This document shows positions 12,725 to 39,783 of a DNA stretch of 48,033 nucleotides, piece after piece (position 1 is the first letter of the stretch; each line of letters starts with the position of its first letter). Source of the stretch: Pirellulales bacterium (lineage in GTDB: Bacteria > Planctomycetota > Planctomycetia > Pirellulales > DATAWG01); assembly GCA_035939775.1 (NCBI GenBank), contig DASZFO010000251.1, positions 1 through 48,033 on the forward strand. Direction: 5' to 3'. Below the pieces are notes generated by a model. That model saw nothing but the letters and a program-made list of their open reading frames with translations, made no database searches and was not told the DNA's origin. Position numbers and translations under genes: made by a program.

Positions 12725-12886
12725 GGGGGCTCGGGGCTGGGGACTCGTGGCTCGGGAAGCGGTCCGCCTACGGCGAACGCATTTCGACAACGTCGAACGC
12801 CGTCATTATGCGCTACTTCCGCTTGCGCGTCCCCCGAGTCCCGAGTCCCTAGCCCCCAGCCCCTGTCGTCTAGCCCCCAGCCCCGA
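12725..12886. repeat. Iterated CCCGAGTCCC / GGGGCTGGGG repeats in inverted orientation
   Basis: The left part (12725-12757) is built from GGGGCTCGGGGCTGGGG-like units with GGGACTCG. The right part (12832-12886) has the reverse-complement units CCCGAGTCCCGAGTCCC and two CTAGCCCCCAGCCCC copies. The right part reaches into the neighbouring gene: the last residues GAGG and the stop TAG of the gene ending at 12870 are encoded by the repeat. A related unit occurs inside the gene at 42058-43560. Confidence 0.65.
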
Positions 12887-14426
12887 TCTTGAACTGTATC
12901 GACGACTGGCCGACCTTTTTGGTCTGCGTGTCTTCGACTGTCAGTTGGAGCGTGTAGGTCCCGTCGTTGATCCGCCTGGGGATCCAGATGAAATAGGGGA
13001 TGAAGAAATCGCGGCGTTGGCTCGCGCAGAGGTCCTCACTCTCCGGGAATTCTTGCTCGGCGATTCGCTCGCCGCGGCCGTCGAGTATCTGGTAGCTGCT
13101 CTTAACCGACGTGTGATACCCCTTGTCAGTCGATTCGGCCTTGAGGTTCTCAATTTCGCAGTAGAGCAGGGCCTCGTCGCCGGCCTTGAATTCGTATTTG
13201 GCGAATTTCTTGTAAACGCCGAAGCTGGTCACTTCCTTGCAGAAAGCCAGATTGCGGACGACCGGCGTGGCCAGCTCGCCAATCCGCGCGGCGGCGTCGC
13301 GCAAGTGAAGCGCTGCCTCAGTCGCCCGCCGCTCGGGATCGGTTACTTTCTCTTCATCGAGATAGGTGACGAGTCCGTAAATCTCTTTGGTCCAAAACTC
13401 CTGCTGTCCGGTGGACAAGCCGGCAACGGGCCGAAGGGCATCGTCGCGCCGCCCGGCAGTGAGATAGAGCAGCCGCAATTGCAACTGGCGCGCGACCTCC
13501 GCCGTAGCGGACGACGAACCGGCCGATTGCCCTTCCATGGCAAGGATCGCCTTGGTCAATTGAAGCTGCCAGCCCTCTGAGTGTGCTGGCGAATCCGCCG
13601 CTTGCTTTGCAGCCGATTTTTCCGCTGCCGTCGAATTCGATTTGCCGCCGGCCACTTGATCGCCGGAGTTGTGATCGCGGGCCTTGAGCGCCGGTCGCAA
13701 TGGCGGCTCGCCTGGCAAAGCCTCGCCCGACGCGGTGACAACCTTTTCGGGATTACTGTTCGCCGATTTGCGTGCAACCGCACGCGAAGCCGGCTCCGCG
13801 GCCGGCGCTGTTCGCACTATCGGGGCCACATCGGTTTCAGATACTTCCGAAACCGCCGCAGCCGCTAGCTCTGCTCCCTGGCCTCCGGCCTCCGGCCTCT
13901 GGCCCCTCTCTTTCCTGTACGCAATTGCCGCCCGAAACTGTCGGACAAGCTGCGGCCACATACTCGGATCGGCTTGCTTCAAGTCATCCAACAGCGCCTG
14001 TTGGTCGGCCGAACTAAGTGTGCCGAGCGATTGCATCTCGACGGCCAGTGCGGTCAAGTCGCGGTCGGTGGCGCCGCCGTGATCCGAACCGATCGGCGGG
14101 AATCCTGAACCCGCGTGTGCGGCGGGGTCCGATGATGTTAGTCCTGGCGCAAAATCGCCTGGAGTCGCGGGCATGAACCCGGCGGCGCCCGCCAAATCGC
14201 CCGATTTCGCGGCGACAGCTTGCCCAGCCTTCGAGTTCGCATCCTTCGCTTTGCTTGGCTTCGCCGGCTCCAGATCGACGAAGCCGGTAGTGGCCGACAC
14301 GAACGGGCTTGCGCAGCCGCCGCAAGGCGCGATAGTTGCCGAGAGCGCGGCGAAAAGCCAATAAGTCGCTAGTGGAGCTACAAATCTGATTTGACGGGTG
14401 CCATGGCCACTGCTCTGGGTGGCCAT
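12870..14426 (-). CDS. Secreted planctomycete protein of unknown function
   Basis: A basic N-terminus is followed by a hydrophobic run (PLATYWLFAALSATIAPCGG) and CGGCASPF, a probable signal peptide with a weak lipobox. About 300 low-complexity residues (Ala, Ser, Glu, Lys) follow. The C-terminal about 190 residues look folded and well conserved: FWTKEIYGLVTYLDEEKV, VRNLAFCKEVTSFGVYKKF, SYQILDGRGERIAEQEFP, RDFFIPYFIWIPRRI and LQLTVEDTQTKKVGQSS. By memory this C-terminal type recurs in planctomycetes without assigned function. The frame is open up to 14525, but the stretch above 14426 is the dispersed repeat at 14382-14494; no ATG, GTG or TTG in frame lies between the repeat and the signal peptide, so the repeat probably supplies the start. 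An iterated seven-base repeat is embedded near 13880. Confidence 0.65.
   Translation of the reverse strand: MATQSSGHGTRQIRFVAPLATYWLFAALSATIAPCGGCASPFVSATTGFVDLEPAKPSKAKDANSKAGQAVAAKSGDLAGAAGFMPATPGDFAPGLTSSDPAAHAGSGFPPIGSDHGGATDRDLTALAVEMQSLGTLSSADQQALLDDLKQADPSMWPQLVRQFRAAIAYRKERGQRPEAGGQGAELAAAAVSEVSETDVAPIVRTAPAAEPASRAVARKSANSNPEKVVTASGEALPGEPPLRPALKARDHNSGDQVAGGKSNSTAAEKSAAKQAADSPAHSEGWQLQLTKAILAMEGQSAGSSSATAEVARQLQLRLLYLTAGRRDDALRPVAGLSTGQQEFWTKEIYGLVTYLDEEKVTDPERRATEAALHLRDAAARIGELATPVVRNLAFCKEVTSFGVYKKFAKYEFKAGDEALLYCEIENLKAESTDKGYHTSVKSSYQILDGRGERIAEQEFPESEDLCASQRRDFFIPYFIWIPRRINDGTYTLQLTVEDTQTKKVGQSSIQFKIGAGG
13875..13910. repeat. Seven-base iterations GGCCTCC inside a coding region
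   Basis: Four consecutive seven-base units (GGCCTCC, GGCCTCC, GGCCTCT, GGCCCCT) lie inside the gene at 12870-14426 and are translated as RGQRPEAGGQ. Since seven is not a multiple of three, any change in unit number would shift the frame. Confidence 0.6.
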
Positions 14427-14494
14427 GCGCCGACACAGTCCATGCCCACGCCGAGCCGTGGGCATGGCACCCAAAGTATCAAAACAGCTTGGAA
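14382..14494 (-). repeat. Dispersed two-hairpin repeat, copy 1 (inverted relative to copy 2)
   Basis: This copy carries two perfect hairpins: CATGGCCAC/GTGGCCATG (14402-14410 with 14419-14427) and CCATGCCCACG/CGTGGGCATGG (14440-14450 with 14457-14467). The whole unit is the near-exact reverse complement of 37288-37407. It lies at the 5' end of the gene ending at 12870, and in both copies the same frame reads MPTARRGHG then RRMATQ then GHGTRQIRF. Confidence 0.85.
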
Positions 14495-14784
14495 ACTCCA
14501 CTAGGATTGATCGCCTCGTGCGCATGGCGATGAATACCGAGCCAAGAATTGGACTGCGAGAAGAGGGGGCGAATGGTACGAAAAACCACCCACCACCGCA
14601 ATACCATGCGTGCTAGCACTTGGAACCGACGGCCTCGGCGCTTGAAATCACGCGGACTTCGACGGCGCGAATGACGGCCGCCAAGACGGAACTCAATCGC
14701 CAATTCAATCGACGTTGTCGAATCCCAGACACGCCACGGACTCCCGGTGGACGGTGTCCGCTCTTTGTGGCCGCGTCCGCGCCG
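14495..14784. other. 290-base gap without a recognised gene
   Basis: This lies between the 3' end of the LRR gene (14785) and the repeat upstream of the gene at 12870-14426, both on the minus strand. It should contain the promoter of the latter. Short open frames are present but lack start signals or family patterns. No hairpin with a T-run is seen. Confidence 0.4.
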
Positions 14785-16278
14785 CTAGTGGAGAATTTGG
14801 CAGTTTACTAACTTATGTCGAAGTTCCTTCAGACCCGCTTCCGTAACCTTCGTGCTGGTCAAATCCAGTGTCTGGAGATCCTTTAATCCAACCAGTTCCT
14901 TCATTCCCTGGTCCGTCACTTGAGTAGCTCTGAGGTTCAGCGTTTGAAGGTTCGTCAATGCGGCGAGGTCTTTCAGACCCTCATCAGTAACCTGTGTGAG
15001 TCTCAGGTTCAAGGTCTGGAGGCTCTTTACCCGGGCGAGTTGCTCTAATCCTAGGTCGTTGACCTGCGTGCCCAAGAGGTCGAGCGACTGGAGGTCTTTC
15101 AAATCGGCCAATTCTTTGAGCCCCTCGCCCGATACCTGCGTCCAGCTAAGGTTCAGCGTCTGAAGGTTCGTCAACCCGGAGAGTTCCTTCAACCCCGCGT
15201 CGGTCACTTCCGTTTCACTGACGACCAATGTCCGGAGCCTCTTCAACCCAGCGAGTCCCTTCAGCCCCGCATCGGTAAGTTTGGTGTCAGCAAGATAGAT
15301 GGTACTAAGGCTCTTTAGCGATGCAAGCTTCTTCAATCCTCCATCGGTCACTTTCGTGCTGGCTAGAACCAGCGTCTGGAGACTCGTAATCTCGGCCAGA
15401 CCGTCCAGCCCAGCATCGGTCGCTTGCGAACCGTAGAGATCGAGCGATTGGAGGTTGTGCAGCCCGGCCAACTGCTTTAGCCCTGTGCCCGTCACCTTCG
15501 TATATAAGAGGCTCAGAACTCGGAGGCGCTTCAGTCCGGCCAGTTCCTTCAATCCCGCGTCCGTCACGTTCGTGTAGCTGAGATCCAGCGTCTGGAGGCT
15601 TTGCAGTCCAGCCAGTTCCTTCAGCCCTGCGTCCGAAGTTAGCGTGAAGCCGAGGTTCAGTGTTTGGAGGCCTTTGAGCGCAGCCAACTCACTCAGATCG
15701 GTATCTACCACTGTCGCGGCACCGAGGTTGAGCACCTTCAGGCTTTTCAATCTCGCAAGCTCCTTGAGCCCCGCGGTCGTCAAATGCGCGTCACTGACGA
15801 TCAGAATTTGGAGACTCCTCGACTGAGCCAATTCCTTCAGTCCCGAATCGGTCACGCCCGTGCTGCTCAGGATTAACGTGTTGAGACCCGTCATTCCGGC
15901 TAGTTCCTTCAATGCCTCGTCGTTCATCCGAGTGCCGTGGAGATTTAATCCAAATGCTCGCATTGGTTGCGGCAGGCGGCTCACGATGGCAGGTTTCCAC
16001 TCACGAAACTGAAACGCCGGAATTTCGCCATCAACTCCCGCTGGATCCTGGTAATAGTGCAATGTTCCATAGTCATCTAAGCTCATCCAACCGACCTCAG
16101 CTCCTGCCTGTTGCCATGCTTTGGCCATATCCTCAGGCAGCAGTTGTGATCGCTTTTCCGCACGTTTGTTGGCATCGAGCGATTTGCTCGTCGAACTAGC
16201 GACCGGTTCGACTGCATTACCCGTGCCCTCAGCAAATAGCAGTGCGCAAACGAACGCGGCGGTTAATTGAATGCGCAC
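14785..16278 (-). CDS. Secreted leucine-rich-repeat protein, about 15 repeats
   Basis: The 497-residue protein starts at a GTG with AAGGAG seven bases upstream, a good ribosome-binding site. The first 22 residues (MRIQLTAAFVCALLFAEGTG) are a signal peptide. Residues about 30-110 are not repeated. From about 113 to the end run about fifteen 24-residue LRRs of the pattern LxxLxxLQTLxLxxTxVTDAGLKELAG. The repeats are very alike, so the array has probably grown by internal duplication. LRR arrays bind proteins or glycans; no catalytic part is seen. It is divergent from pyrB with 175 bases between. It resembles the smaller LRR protein at 905-1825. Confidence 0.85.
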   Translation of the reverse strand: MRIQLTAAFVCALLFAEGTGNAVEPVASSTSKSLDANKRAEKRSQLLPEDMAKAWQQAGAEVGWMSLDDYGTLHYYQDPAGVDGEIPAFQFREWKPAIVSRLPQPMRAFGLNLHGTRMNDEALKELAGMTGLNTLILSSTGVTDSGLKELAQSRSLQILIVSDAHLTTAGLKELARLKSLKVLNLGAATVVDTDLSELAALKGLQTLNLGFTLTSDAGLKELAGLQSLQTLDLSYTNVTDAGLKELAGLKRLRVLSLLYTKVTGTGLKQLAGLHNLQSLDLYGSQATDAGLDGLAEITSLQTLVLASTKVTDGGLKKLASLKSLSTIYLADTKLTDAGLKGLAGLKRLRTLVVSETEVTDAGLKELSGLTNLQTLNLSWTQVSGEGLKELADLKDLQSLDLLGTQVNDLGLEQLARVKSLQTLNLRLTQVTDEGLKDLAALTNLQTLNLRATQVTDQGMKELVGLKDLQTLDLTSTKVTEAGLKELRHKLVNCQILH

Positions 16279-32367: not shown

Positions 32368-32581
32368 CAAACACCGAACAAATCGCTTTAGGCAACAACT
32401 GCTGCCCTTGCCAGTTGCGATTAATTTCATGAGATCCGTTTGTCATTTTTACTTTTCAACGTTCCGCTCGCCGGCTGTGCCTGAGCTTGGCTCGAACGGT
32501 GCAAAAGGGGGACGCGACTGATCCCTGAGCCGAGGCGCGTCCGCTGTAATTCGCTCGCGAAAGACTGGCGCGCCGTGGCAA

Positions 32582-32869
32582 TCAATGAAATGCCGCGAAG
32601 TCTTTGCCCAGAAGTGCGGCGGCGATTTTCAGTTTGAGGATTTCGTCGGTCCCTTCGTAGATGCGGCAGACGCGGACGTCTTGCAGATGCCGGCCGACGC
32701 GATAGAGGTTCGACCAGCCACGGCCGCCGAAGACTTGCACCGCCCGATCGGCCGCGTCCCAGGCGGCGTTTGAGGCGAAGAGCTTTGCCTCCGCGACCAG
32801 CAGATCGGCCGCGACAAACACTTGGGCGTCGTCGGTCACTTCCCCGCTTATCTTCGCTTCCGCCGCCCT
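32582..32869 (-). pseudogene. Truncated second copy of the acyl-CoA dehydrogenase 3' end
   Basis: This stretch aligns with 33237-33529, the 3' end of the complete acyl-CoA dehydrogenase gene, with about 90% base identity by eye and one three-base gap. It encodes RAAEAKISGEVTDDAQVF and then the family C-terminus up to the same stop. An in-frame TGA (32873-32875) and unrelated sequence precede it, so nothing longer can be made. The last 63 residues are identical to the full copy although about 20 bases differ, so nearly all changes are silent. It therefore comes from a gene that was functional until recently. It is separated from the full copy by an antitoxin gene. Confidence 0.8.
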
Positions 32870-33220: not shown

Positions 33221-33239
33221 ACCGTAGCCTCCTCTCCAA

Positions 33240-34406
33240 TCAATGAAACGCGGCGAAGTCTTTTCCCAACAGCGCGGCGGCGATTTTTAGTTTGAGGATT
33301 TCATCGGTCCCTTCGTAGATGCGGCAGACGCGAACGTCTTGCAAGTGCCGGCCGACGCGATAGAGATTCGACCAGCCGCGGCCACCGAACACTTGCACCG
33401 CCCGGTCGGCCGCGTCCCAGGCGGCATTCGCGGCGAAGAGCTTCGCTTCGGCGACCAGCAGATCGGCTGCGGCAAACAATTCGGCGTCGTCGGTGGCTTG
33501 CTCACTGGCGCGCTTCGCTTCCGCCGCCCGCTCGATGAGCGGCGCCGCCGCCGCTCGGGCCAGCTCGATCGCCGCGACGTGCTCTTGCACCAATTGATGC
33601 CGGCCGATCGGCTTGCCATGCTGATGCCGACTGCGGCAATAGTCCAGAACTTCCGCCAGACAATCCTCGATCACCCCCAGGCAGCCGGCCGCGACACTCA
33701 TCCGCCCGGAAACGAGAGTGCCCATCGCGATCCGGAAGCCGTCGCCCTCCTTGCCGAGCAGGTTTTCGAGCGGCACCGGATGGTCGCTCATTTCGAACAT
33801 GCCGGTATTGGTCGTAAACATGCCGAGCTTGGCGGGAAGGTCTTCGCGCTGGAAAGTGTCGCCCGCCGTATCGACGATGAAGGCGCTGATCCGCCGCTCG
33901 GGGCCGGTCTTGTCGGCCGGATAGGCGAACACGATCACGGTGTGGGCAATGCCGCCGTTGGAAATCAGATATTTCACGCCGCTCAACAGAAAGCGATCGC
34001 CGTCGCGGCGGTAGGTGCTCGTCATCTCGAGCGGGTTGCTCCCCGCCTCCGGCTCGGTCAGCCCGAAGGCCATGATCCGCTTGCCCGCGACCGACGCGGG
34101 AAGATATGCTTGTTTCTGCGCGGCATTGCCGTAGCGAAAGATCGGGTACTGGCCGATCGACGTGTGTCCGCTGAAGAACGTGCGCACACCGGTCCCCTCG
34201 CGGCCGATTCGCGCGAGCGCTCGAGCGTAAGCGACCGCGTCCGCCCCTCGTCCGCCGAATTCCGCCGGCACGGGCATCCCGAGCAGATTGTGCTTCTTCG
34301 CCAGCGGAACGAGTTGATCGTTCTGCCGGTGCTCGAGGTAACACAGCTCCTCGATCGGCCGCAGTTCCTGACAAAAGGATTCGACGTCGTCGAACAGATC
34401 GTTCAT
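33240..34406 (-). CDS. Acyl-CoA dehydrogenase
   Basis: With the ATG at 34406 the protein has 388 residues, the usual size. It shows IMAFGLTEPEAGSNPLEM (the flavin/substrate loop), VKYLISNGGIAHT, RMSVAAGCLGVIEDCLAE, and the C-terminal AVQVFGGRGWSNLYRVGRH with VCRIYEGTDEILKLKI. These enzymes oxidise acyl-CoA to 2-enoyl-CoA with FAD and pass electrons to ETF. In the last motif the glutamate of YEGT is the usual catalytic base position in many members. No other beta-oxidation gene is near. A histone-deacetylase-like gene precedes it on the same strand; an antitoxin and a truncated copy of its own 3' end follow. The longer frame to 34487 enters a repeat and is rejected. Confidence 0.92.
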   Translation of the reverse strand: MNDLFDDVESFCQELRPIEELCYLEHRQNDQLVPLAKKHNLLGMPVPAEFGGRGADAVAYARALARIGREGTGVRTFFSGHTSIGQYPIFRYGNAAQKQAYLPASVAGKRIMAFGLTEPEAGSNPLEMTSTYRRDGDRFLLSGVKYLISNGGIAHTVIVFAYPADKTGPERRISAFIVDTAGDTFQREDLPAKLGMFTTNTGMFEMSDHPVPLENLLGKEGDGFRIAMGTLVSGRMSVAAGCLGVIEDCLAEVLDYCRSRHQHGKPIGRHQLVQEHVAAIELARAAAAPLIERAAEAKRASEQATDDAELFAAADLLVAEAKLFAANAAWDAADRAVQVFGGRGWSNLYRVGRHLQDVRVCRIYEGTDEILKLKIAAALLGKDFAAFH

Positions 34407-34416
34407 GGAGATAGTC

Positions 34417-34450
34417 GATTTTAGATTCTGGATTTTGGATTTTGGATTTC
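34417..34450. repeat. Seven-base iterations (GGATTTT) between two genes
   Basis: Repeated units of GGATTTT and close variants (AGATTCT) span the end of the histone-deacetylase-like gene and the leader of the acyl-CoA dehydrogenase gene. The last coding residues of the former (IQNPKSRI) and its stop TAA are encoded by this repeat. Confidence 0.65.
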
Positions 34451-35380
34451 CGGAGAAGTGAGGCCTTCGAGGTGCAGGCCCACGCATTCGGCCAGTACTG
34501 CGGGATTATAACCTCCTTCCAAGACGCTCACGATCCGGCCGCCGGCGTGCGCTTGCGCCACATCGCGGACCGCGGCCGTCAGCGTGGCGAAGTCTTCCGT
34601 CTCGAGCCCTAGCGAGCCGATCGGGTCGGCGCGATGGCTGTCGAAGCCCGCGCTCAGCAAGATAAGCTGCGGCCGGAGCCGATCGGCCATTCGTGTAACC
34701 TCGCCCGTGAAGCGCTCAATATAGTCGTCTCGCGGCGTGCCGAAGGCGAGCGGGAGATTCAAAGTCGTTCCCAGCCCCGGTCCGCTGCCGGTTTCATCGC
34801 TTGCACCGCTGCCCGGATAGAACGGCCAGCGATGGACGGAAAAGAAACCGACGGCCGCGTCGCGCCAAAAAATCTCCTGCGTGCCATTGCCGTGATGCAC
34901 GTCCCAATCGACGATCAGCACCCGATCGAGTTGCAGCTCGTCGATGGCCAGGCGCGCGCCAATTGCGACATTGTCGAACAGGCAAAAACCCATCGCGGCG
35001 TTCGGCCGGGCATGATGTCCGGGAGGGCGAACGAGGCAGAGCGCGGTCGTATCCTCGCCGCGCACGACGCGCTCGACGGCATCGGTCACGGCCCCGGCCG
35101 CCAAGAGGGCCGCGTCGTACGACTTTGGCCCCACCACGGTGTCCGCCTCGAGCAATCTGCCGCCGCGAGCGATGAACTCAGCGACGTCGGCGACGTAGCC
35201 CGAATCATGAACGCGCGTCAGCCGCTCTGGCGAGACGGGGCCGAACGCGGGGCGCTGGCATCGATCGGCCAGCCCGGTCGCGTCCAGATGGCGCAGGATG
35301 TGAGCGAGCCGCGTCGGATTCTCCGGGTGGTCGCCAGTCGCGTGTTCGAGAAATCGCGGATCGCTGTAGAGCAAGGTCAT
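34421..35380 (-). CDS. Histone deacetylase-family (AcuC/HdaH-like) hydrolase
   Basis: The 319-residue protein shows the zinc-dependent deacetylase motifs: HPENPTRL, LVRPPGHHARPNAAMGFCLF (active-site histidine pair), VDWDVHHGNGTQEIF (zinc D and H), LSAGFDSHRADP (zinc D) and LEGGYNPAVLAE. Bacterial members remove acetyl groups from polyamines, acetoin-pathway proteins or other amides; the substrate here is unknown. A link to the polyamine genes at 24006-26079 is only speculative. Its last eight residues derive from an iterated repeat. It is followed on the same strand by the acyl-CoA dehydrogenase. Confidence 0.93.
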   Translation of the reverse strand: MTLLYSDPRFLEHATGDHPENPTRLAHILRHLDATGLADRCQRPAFGPVSPERLTRVHDSGYVADVAEFIARGGRLLEADTVVGPKSYDAALLAAGAVTDAVERVVRGEDTTALCLVRPPGHHARPNAAMGFCLFDNVAIGARLAIDELQLDRVLIVDWDVHHGNGTQEIFWRDAAVGFFSVHRWPFYPGSGASDETGSGPGLGTTLNLPLAFGTPRDDYIERFTGEVTRMADRLRPQLILLSAGFDSHRADPIGSLGLETEDFATLTAAVRDVAQAHAGGRIVSVLEGGYNPAVLAECVGLHLEGLTSPEIQNPKSRI

Positions 35381-37208: not shown

Positions 37209-37287
37209 CGGAATTGGGAAATAGCGAGAATATCGCCGCCGACGGGAAGTGGCGGCGCGAGTTGGCCGAGCAAAAGGATTTGCATTG

Positions 37288-37407
37288 GTGAAGCTTCAAG
37301 ACTGTTTTGATCCGTTGGGTGCCATGCCCACGGCTCGGCGTGGGCATGGACGCCATCGGCGCATGGCCACTCAGGGCAGTGGCCATGGCACCCGTCAAAT
37401 CAGATTT
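37288..37407 (+). repeat. Dispersed two-hairpin repeat, copy 2
   Basis: The reverse-complement partner of 14382-14494. Hairpins are CCATGCCCACG/CGTGGGCATGG (37322-37332 with 37339-37349) and CATGGCCAC/GTGGCCATG (37362-37370 with 37379-37387). It lies just before the signal peptide of the HEAT-repeat protein and is in the same frame relative to that gene as copy 1 is to its gene. Confidence 0.85.
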
Positions 37408-39783
37408 AGAGCTTCATTGGTGGCTTTGCTTCGCTCAATTAGCCGCGGTTTTTGGCGACCGTGCTGCATTGCCGCTGCGACGCTGGCGCTCCTCGCGGCG
37501 TCGGGCTGCCATCCGTGGTGGTCCGCCGCGGCGGATTCAGCGGTCTCCCCAATCGCCGATGACGCCCCTCTGCGGCACCAAACGCAACGTGATGTCGCCG
37601 GCGCGCGAAGCACCTCGGAAACCAAACCTAAACGCGCCGCAAGCGACAATCTCGATCCGCTATCCAATCCATTCTGGATATCAGACTCGGGAAGCGCTGA
37701 GCTTGCGGAAACGATCGCCGCCGCTCGCGGGCAAGCCGGCGCTCCGCTCGTTGCAGCAAGCATCTCAGCCTCCGGATCGCAACAAGGCTCGCAGACTGCC
37801 GCAACCGGCGGCCAACATCATTGGCGACATCCGGCCTTGGAAAAACTCATGGAGCAGTCGCCGGATCGCCGCTTCGATCTCCAACGGGCGCTGGCATCGT
37901 CCGATCCAATCGCCGCCGCCAACGCGGCCATCCTGCTTGCCCGAGCAGGCAGTTCGGCGGGCGATGCGGAACTCGTCCGCGCGATCCGATCTTCGACGAC
38001 GAACCTCCGGCAGCGCTGCGCTGCGGCGGAGGCGCTGGCCGACGTCCGCCAGCCAGCAACTGTGCTGCAACTGCAACATCTTGTGGATGAGTTCGGCGAC
38101 TTTTCTCCCACGGAACTGCACAATTACGGGCCGGAATTGCACGCCGATCTGCTGCGGTCGTTGACCCGCGCGGAATCGAGAGCCGACGTGATCCCGGCTG
38201 GCGGCGAGCCGCGGATCGTCGCGGCGCTGGCGAGTCCGGCGGGCATCGTGCGCCGCGAGGCGCTCTTGGCATTGGCCGATTCGAAACTCGGTCCGCTGCC
38301 GGCGAACATCACGCGGCTGGCGACCGATGAGGACCGTCAAGTGCGCGCGGCGGCCGTTGTCGCGATCGCCGCCCGGCGTCATTGCCAAGCGATGGAAGTA
38401 TTGCGGCGGGCGCTGGCCGATCAGGACCTCGACGTGCGGCTGGCGGCCGTCGCCGGATACGGCCTGCTCGGCGGCGCCGACGCGACGGCCGAATTGAAGC
38501 GATTGTCGACGAACTCCGCTGAATTGATCCGCGCCGCCGCCTACGACTCGCTTGTCGACGGAAACGATCCCGACGTGCGCGCGGCGGGTGCGGCGGATAA
38601 ATCGTGGCGCGTGCGCCGCGTCGTCGCCGCCGCTCTGGCCCGGGATTCGAATCGCAGGTCGGTTAGCCTCGCCGAGCAACTGGTCGCCGATGGCAATTTG
38701 GACGTGGCCCGGCAAACGATCGAATCCGTGGCGAATTGGCCGTTGGAGCAAGCCGGGCCGGTGCTAATGAAGGCCATGAGTGGGCTTTCGTATACGCCGC
38801 GCAAATTGGCCGCCGCCCAGCTCGCCGCGCGCTGGCCCCCGGCCGCGAGTTTTGAGGTCGACGCCCCGGCCGACCGGCGCGGCGTGCTGCTCGCCGAAAT
38901 CGAGCGGCAGTGGAAAACGCAGTTTGAGGCCGCCGCGTTTCAACGGCTGGGGCACAGTACGTCGGCATCGGACACGCCCGAGCAGGCGGCGGAGAACGCG
39001 CGCGAGCTGGCTGCGGTCGAGCGGCTCAAGTCGGACGACCTCCGCGAGCGCCGCGCGGTGGCCGAGGACCTGCGCGGTGAATTCGGCTCTCGCCCGCTTT
39101 CGGAACCGGCGCTCGCACGCCTGGCCGACTTAATGACTCCGGAATCGGACCCGTTGGTTTGGGCGAGCGTTTTCGAGTTGCTGGCTTGCGACGCGCGCGA
39201 GCCATCGATCCGGCTGGCCTACGGGGCGCTCGGGCATTCGTCGCCGGAGGTTCGCCGCCGGGCGTGCGAGCACTTGGCGGCCCACCCCGACGCGCGGCAC
39301 GCCCCGCTGCTGACGATATCGCTCGCCGATCCGGATCCAGCGGTGGTTGCGGCGGCGGTAAAGGCGCTGGGCCGGCTCAATTCGCTGGACGACACGAAGC
39401 CGCTCGCGCGATTGCTCGCGGATCCCGATCACGAATTGCGAGTGGAAGTGGCCAAAGCACTCGCGCACGCGGGAGCGGATTCGGGAATCGCCGCGCTCGA
39501 ACGTCTGGCGTACGACGCCGATCCCCATGTGCGCCGGGCGGTGGCCGCCGCGATGGGCGAAGTGCCGGATGCATCGTTCTTGCCCGACTTGATTCATCTG
39601 CTCGACGATCGCCCTGAGGTATGCCGCGCGGCGCTGGCCAGCTTGCCGCGCGTGGCGGGGAACGCCATCCCGGCATCCGACTCGACGGCCGCCGCCGGAT
39701 CATCGCCCGAAAGCGAGCCCCAGCGCTGGAAGGAGTGGTATCGCCGGCAAGCGACGATAGACTTAGACCAGCGAGCGCGGTAA
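37363..39783 (+). CDS. HEAT-repeat lipoprotein
   Basis: The hydrophobic run CIAAATLALLAASGC followed by HPWW marks a lipoprotein signal. About 90 low-complexity residues follow, then HEAT/PBS-lyase-type repeats to the end (for instance IVRREALLALADSKLGPL, QVRAAAVVAIAARRHCQAM, LRVEVAKALAHAGADSGI, HVRRAVAAAMGEVPDASF). HEAT arrays are protein-binding scaffolds. The start is uncertain: the frame is open from 37249; the ATGs at 37324 and 37363 lie inside the dispersed repeat, while the GTG at 37420 gives the most normal signal length (30 residues). The ATG at 37363 is given here by analogy with the other repeat-led gene. The downstream acylase gene follows after 47 bases. Confidence 0.75.
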   Translation: MATQGSGHGTRQIRFRASLVALLRSISRGFWRPCCIAAATLALLAASGCHPWWSAAADSAVSPIADDAPLRHQTQRDVAGARSTSETKPKRAASDNLDPLSNPFWISDSGSAELAETIAAARGQAGAPLVAASISASGSQQGSQTAATGGQHHWRHPALEKLMEQSPDRRFDLQRALASSDPIAAANAAILLARAGSSAGDAELVRAIRSSTTNLRQRCAAAEALADVRQPATVLQLQHLVDEFGDFSPTELHNYGPELHADLLRSLTRAESRADVIPAGGEPRIVAALASPAGIVRREALLALADSKLGPLPANITRLATDEDRQVRAAAVVAIAARRHCQAMEVLRRALADQDLDVRLAAVAGYGLLGGADATAELKRLSTNSAELIRAAAYDSLVDGNDPDVRAAGAADKSWRVRRVVAAALARDSNRRSVSLAEQLVADGNLDVARQTIESVANWPLEQAGPVLMKAMSGLSYTPRKLAAAQLAARWPPAASFEVDAPADRRGVLLAEIERQWKTQFEAAAFQRLGHSTSASDTPEQAAENARELAAVERLKSDDLRERRAVAEDLRGEFGSRPLSEPALARLADLMTPESDPLVWASVFELLACDAREPSIRLAYGALGHSSPEVRRRACEHLAAHPDARHAPLLTISLADPDPAVVAAAVKALGRLNSLDDTKPLARLLADPDHELRVEVAKALAHAGADSGIAALERLAYDADPHVRRAVAAAMGEVPDASFLPDLIHLLDDRPEVCRAALASLPRVAGNAIPASDSTAAAGSSPESEPQRWKEWYRRQATIDLDQRAR

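Follow-up and report, generated by a model that had tools for sequence, protein, structure and literature searches.

How two unrelated predicted exported proteins come to share an N-terminal sequence, and whether the repeat that encodes it also starts their translation, is the question raised by a 48,033-nt stretch of a Pirellulales bacterium genome (GCA_035939775.1, contig DASZFO010000251.1; the window hereafter, meaning the whole stretch of DNA that was analysed). An earlier note had described there two copies of a dispersed repeat of about 110 bases with two hairpins, each joining directly to a signal segment, and had proposed that the repeat supplies both the start codon and the basic n-region. 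The two copies and their hairpins are indeed present, but the unit is longer than described: a palindromic element of 128 bp that ends in terminal inverted repeats (consensus TGGAGCTTCAA) and sits between 4-bp direct repeats. The two genes and the parts of the element are as follows.

12870-14525, minus strand: gene 1, a predicted lipoprotein of 551 codons including the 44-codon insert, with no Pfam domain.
14373-14500, minus strand: element copy 1, 128 bp, 6 differences from the consensus.
14501-14504, minus strand: upstream direct repeat of copy 1, CTAG, a probable 4-bp target duplication identical to 14369-14372.
14369-14372, minus strand: downstream direct repeat of copy 1, CTAG, identical in sequence to 14501-14504.
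14440-14467, minus strand: hairpin A of copy 1, CCATGCCCACG with loop CGTGGGCATGG.
14403-14426, minus strand: hairpin B of copy 1, ATGGCCAC with loop GTGGCCAT, as read from the sequence.
37288-39783, plus strand: gene 2, a HEAT-repeat protein with a lipoprotein-type signal (LAASGC), read from GTG 37288.
37289-37416, plus strand: element copy 2, 128 bp, 13 differences from the consensus.
37285-37288, plus strand: upstream direct repeat of copy 2, TTGG; a possible native TTG start lies within it, and its last base opens GTG 37288-37290.
37417-37420, plus strand: downstream direct repeat of copy 2, TTGG, which regenerates TTG GTG.
37322-37349, plus strand: hairpin A of copy 2.
37362-37387, plus strand: hairpin B of copy 2.

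The copies are mutually inverted, with 139-nt arms that are 86% complementary, and copy 1 is the top match of the family model (127.1 bits). The consensus element begins with TGGAGCTTCAA and ends with TTGAAGCTCCA, the 128-bp unit holds no gene, and the window gave no Rfam match at gathering scores. Folded as DNA, the two copies reach -36.1 kcal/mol (z -5.8) and -40.0 kcal/mol (z -7.2), energies equalled by none of 200 shuffles for either copy. In both, the distance from 4-mer to 4-mer is 132 bp, or 44 codons, so that the net insertion keeps the reading frame. Elsewhere in the window, a lone copy of the element-end sequence CTAGTGGAG at 14785-14793, possibly an element remnant, provides the TAG stop of the minus-strand gene at 14785-16278.

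Translation bears out that the two copies share one reading frame (MPTARRGHG ... GHGTRQIRF) and run on to a hydrophobic segment. This common frame is, however, trivial: from CTAG to CTAG only one of the six frames of the consensus is stop-free, namely the one used in both genes, and any full-length CTAG insertion that leaves its gene open must use it, because the other five carry stops. Selection on the repeat as a coding unit finds no support: 13 of the 17 gapless copies leave that frame open, where 9.5 would be expected if the consensus mutated at random (P 0.065), and changes fall at codon positions 1, 2 and 3 in numbers of 117, 89 and 98; without a third-position excess, the element peptide is not visibly selected. 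Read from upstream starts, the two proteins would share the same 44-residue N-terminal insert, including element residues encoded ahead of the element's own ATGs, such as VEFPSCFDTLGAMPTAR.

Such upstream starts are present in both genes. Gene 1, homologues of which were found in 50 of 57 genomes searched (own genome counted), has an in-frame ATG at 14525, upstream of copy 1, and its open frame thus begins outside the repeat. Comparison with the leaders of relatives marks this codon as probably the native start:

14505-14525, minus strand: probable native start of gene 1 (ATG 14525-14523) and its first seven codons, MRTRRSI.

The insertion point is accordingly codon 8, seven codons after the ATG, at which no clear ribosome-binding sequence was recognised. 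With the element left out, the joined flanks read MRTRRSILATYWLFAALSATIAPCGGC, similar to the short cysteine-ended leaders of the homologues. From copy 1 to the hydrophobic segment there is no in-frame ATG, GTG or TTG, just as the earlier note had observed.

At gene 2 the position of the start is marked by a conserved leader motif:

37270-37283, plus strand: leader motif GCAAAAGGATTTGC, an inverted repeat with an AAAGGA ribosome-binding sequence, just before the gene 2 start.

The motif lies 1 nt ahead of the TTG and 4 nt ahead of the GTG, and it stands directly before the start codon in six of eight related loci scanned. Because motif and TTG/GTG both precede copy 2, the element is placed downstream of what is probably the native start of gene 2, and read-through is open. 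Direct joining of the repeat to the signal segment, as first described, holds insofar as the element leads there in both genes; in gene 2 a native n-region, LLRSISRGFWRP, intervenes between copy 2 and the hydrophobic segment. An in-frame TTG and GTG also directly follow copy 2, and the flanks joined without the element give an ordinary lipoprotein leader like those of relatives.

The leader motif of the HEAT-protein gene is an inverted repeat with the ribosome-binding sequence in its loop that is kept across families and is rare elsewhere in each genome: across 20 genomes it occurs 10 times, in 7 of them, with no control matches. It is a possible gene-specific translational control element. 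Separately, the window contains a 270-nt direct repeat of 89% identity (32579-32848 and 33237-33506), the second copy of which lies at the end of the gene at 33240-34487.

To place the two insertions within their family, copies were gathered by sequence and pattern searches of the genome followed by a profile search of the fetched regions. The family profile identifies about 80 copies, of which 75 score above 52 bits and 5 are fragments; 100 of the 124 pattern-search matches entered the set, so that a few copies may be missing. Both ends are recognisable (at most 4 mismatches to the consensus ends) in 41 of the 80, and 17 of these 41 have the exact 128-bp length. Genes were called with a hexamer model for which 77 long open frames served as training set; the starts that it gives are approximate. 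On these calls the copies are mostly intergenic: convergent gaps contain 26 of them, unidirectional gaps 30 and divergent gaps 4, while 8 overlap a gene and 12 are found at region edges; by chance, 16,704 of 20,000 random 124-bp placements in control regions overlap a gene. Within 10 bp of an element edge we count 30 gene 3' ends and no gene 5' ends. Of 26 genes that end at an element edge, 19 do so with TAG, compared with 35 of 104 stops in control regions. The element is mostly parked at gene ends, with strongly non-random positions and a 3'-end bias, and the enrichment at signal-peptide genes expected from the earlier note does not materialise, since only two of 80 copies lie in frame ahead of a signal peptide, both in this window. 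Placement is non-random, but the bias is towards the other end of genes.

A third in-frame N-terminal copy (contig C373, locus L185) lies ahead of a gene whose product has an Anth_synt_I_N and a Chorismate_bind domain. Alignments of most relatives with this frame start at about residue 56-77, past the element, and a few start earlier; because the gene start is ambiguous, we left this copy out of the clear N-terminal cases. Several copies are broken in the loop of hairpin A by another repeat at contig ends (L131, L132, L140, L171 and L174, and L444-L446 with contig ends near 114-133), and the junctions have CGGCTTTGCG in common; the pattern looks as if insertion sequences target hairpin A.

The flanks of the copies speak to how the element may have inserted. 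The flanking 4-mer consensus is CTAG on both sides; identical 4-mers flank 7 of 41 copies against 5.0 expected on shuffling (P 0.17), and position-wise agreement is 89 of 164 against 80.0 expected (P 0.04). These statistics make a 4-bp target duplication likely, though they do not prove it alone, and CTAG could partly be element sequence; the TTGG/TTGG pair of copy 2 and the reading frames of the two genes favour the duplication. No empty site was found among the relatives' genomes compared, the nearest of which represents another genus of the same family.

A mobilising enzyme was sought as well. Y1 transposases gave four matches in the genome, none with an element inside 1.5 kb on either side, and a RAYT partner is not supported at these loci. 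Three loci hold RAYT-like Y1 transposase genes amid other short repeats, such as AAAAGGGGACA and GTCAGGCC...GGCCTGAC, unrelated to the element. Searching for the element ends as a pattern (at most 2 mismatches) returned 52 matches against 31 for the control, a number that outside the known copies is not above chance, and as the assembly consists of 384 contigs a transposase-bearing element may have been missed. In other genomes, no transposase-like candidate for an autonomous element between the hairpins appeared among the matches listed (120 loci scanned). Since the mobilising enzyme was not found, we do not claim membership of a RAYT-REP system.

Parts of the element recur more widely. The double hairpin GGGTGCC...GGCACCC forms a core found in at least 120 stretches, with all 80 of the 80 matches listed coming from planctomycete records, including Gemmataceae, Pirellulales and Phycisphaerae, and it is present in 18 of 396 genomes of the order (own genome counted). 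Outside the core the sequence differs between genomes, and none of the 19 outside loci listed showed the CTAGTGGAGCTTCAA ends. Hairpin clusters of other genomes fall in called genes in 9 of 104 cases, most of which look like upstream-extended open frames. In another planctomycete, a DNA polymerase III delta-type gene has a single hairpin in frame within it (L393, 4350-4380). At L293 a hairpin sits in frame upstream of the signal segment of a TolC-like outer membrane efflux protein, which has its own AAGGAGG and ATG further upstream; the gene start was called at the element ATG despite that upstream in-frame codon.

We propose, with a probability of roughly 0.72, that the two N-termini record MITE/REP-like insertions behind native starts, which are read through in frame as passive DNA and donate no start codon. 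The element would be a non-autonomous palindromic mobile element of 128 bp that prefers CTAG and inserts with a 4-bp duplication, and that may have landed just behind native start codons, which for gene 1 means codon 8 and for gene 2 the TTG/GTG start. With 132 bp added and one open frame out of six, surviving insertions would be in frame and would encode the same 44 residues. Ribosomes most likely still initiate at the native upstream starts and pass through the element, and the product would have a long basic n-region ahead of an unchanged signal peptide. Cleavage of the leader and an n-region without structure would explain why such insertions are tolerated.

The original proposal, that an ATG of the repeat (in MPTARR or MATQ) starts the exported proteins and the repeat provides their basic n-region, draws on the in-frame ATGs within the element, on the lack of any later start in gene 1 and on the Arg-rich character of the encoded segment, and it has a precedent in Yersinia, where part of RU-2 is described as the predicted signal peptide of YPO1552 (PMC2759123). 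We nevertheless consider it improbable: both genes have in-frame starts upstream of the element, that of gene 2 marked by the conserved leader motif, RNA folding puts the element ATGs in hairpin stems, and just two of the 80 copies are placed in this way. A different doubt concerns gene 2, whose element RNA has a minimum-energy fold that pairs both element ends (-85.4 kcal/mol, z -5.3), with the upstream start codon in the basal stem. This may hinder initiation, and it leaves room for a ribosome that binds at GCAAAAGGATTTGC and crosses the base of the hairpin to TTG GTG at 37417-37422, thereby making the protein in its original, insert-free form. In the fold, the leader motif does lie across the base from the second TTGGTG, and the probable target duplication regenerates the start codons; the second TTGGTG is itself partly paired, however, and such a bypass is inapplicable to gene 1, whose coding sequence itself contains the insert, so that we regard it as unlikely.

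It is similarly doubtful that the insertions damaged both genes, leaving little or no protein and frames that are intact merely because insertion was recent. Copy 1, with its few differences from the consensus, may be young, and the gene 2 start is in a strong stem, but downstream of the insertions both frames run uninterrupted for 500-800 codons and have conserved counterparts in relatives, and copy 2 has diverged enough that it is probably older. A bolder extension, to which we give only an outside chance, would have palindromic elements of Planctomycetes settle in frame, time and again, in signal-peptide n-regions as a safe harbour, with the gene 2 start regenerated by the duplication and reached across the hairpin, and the insertion silent in the protein. 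Read-through of passive insertions from native starts remains our preferred reading.

Among known systems, the element resembles the GTAG REP/BIME sequences, which are described as palindromic, high in copy number and mostly located downstream of genes or in convergent gaps, with ends that often give the neighbour's TAG stop and some copies in frame in genes or at predicted N-termini; the same account places GTAG REPs in Planctomycetes (PMC3733652). Consistent with this group are the CTAG consensus at both ends and the 30 versus 0 gene ends at element edges. The element differs in its 128-bp unit with terminal inverted repeats, two different hairpins and CTAG at both ends, and, unlike for GTAG REP/BIME, no element-flanked RAYT gene was found. 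Rickettsia palindromic elements, of about 150 bp, are reported in frame within unrelated genes (PMC10969869), and proteins with an N-terminal RPE-1 are stated to be expressed (PMC3733652, 2013). Nearly half of the RPE copies are said to lie in genes, whereas here the overlap with called genes is 8 of 80 copies, with two or three N-terminal in-frame cases: two before signal peptides and one before the chorismate-binding enzyme. The enterobacterial RU-1/RU-2 MITEs, as described in PMC2759123 and PMC2229807, appear to be an unrelated repeat, and RU-2 is depicted as forming part of a signal peptide (PMC2759123), while the planctomycete element precedes an existing one. In-frame palindromic inserts are on record in several REP families, although mis-annotated starts may account for N-terminal cases, as the same source warns (PMC3733652). 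A literature search of limited depth returned no recognised description of the planctomycete element, and the best reading is a new MITE/REP-like family of a known kind, comparable to Rickettsia RPEs, Yersinia RU-2 and GTAG REPs.

With this finding, the bacterial palindromic elements able to sit in frame in genes gain a planctomycete family. It also offers a functionless origin for a common N-terminus in unrelated proteins, through one stop-free frame and survivor bias, and it carries a warning that the start annotation of exported proteins in such genomes can shift into repeats.
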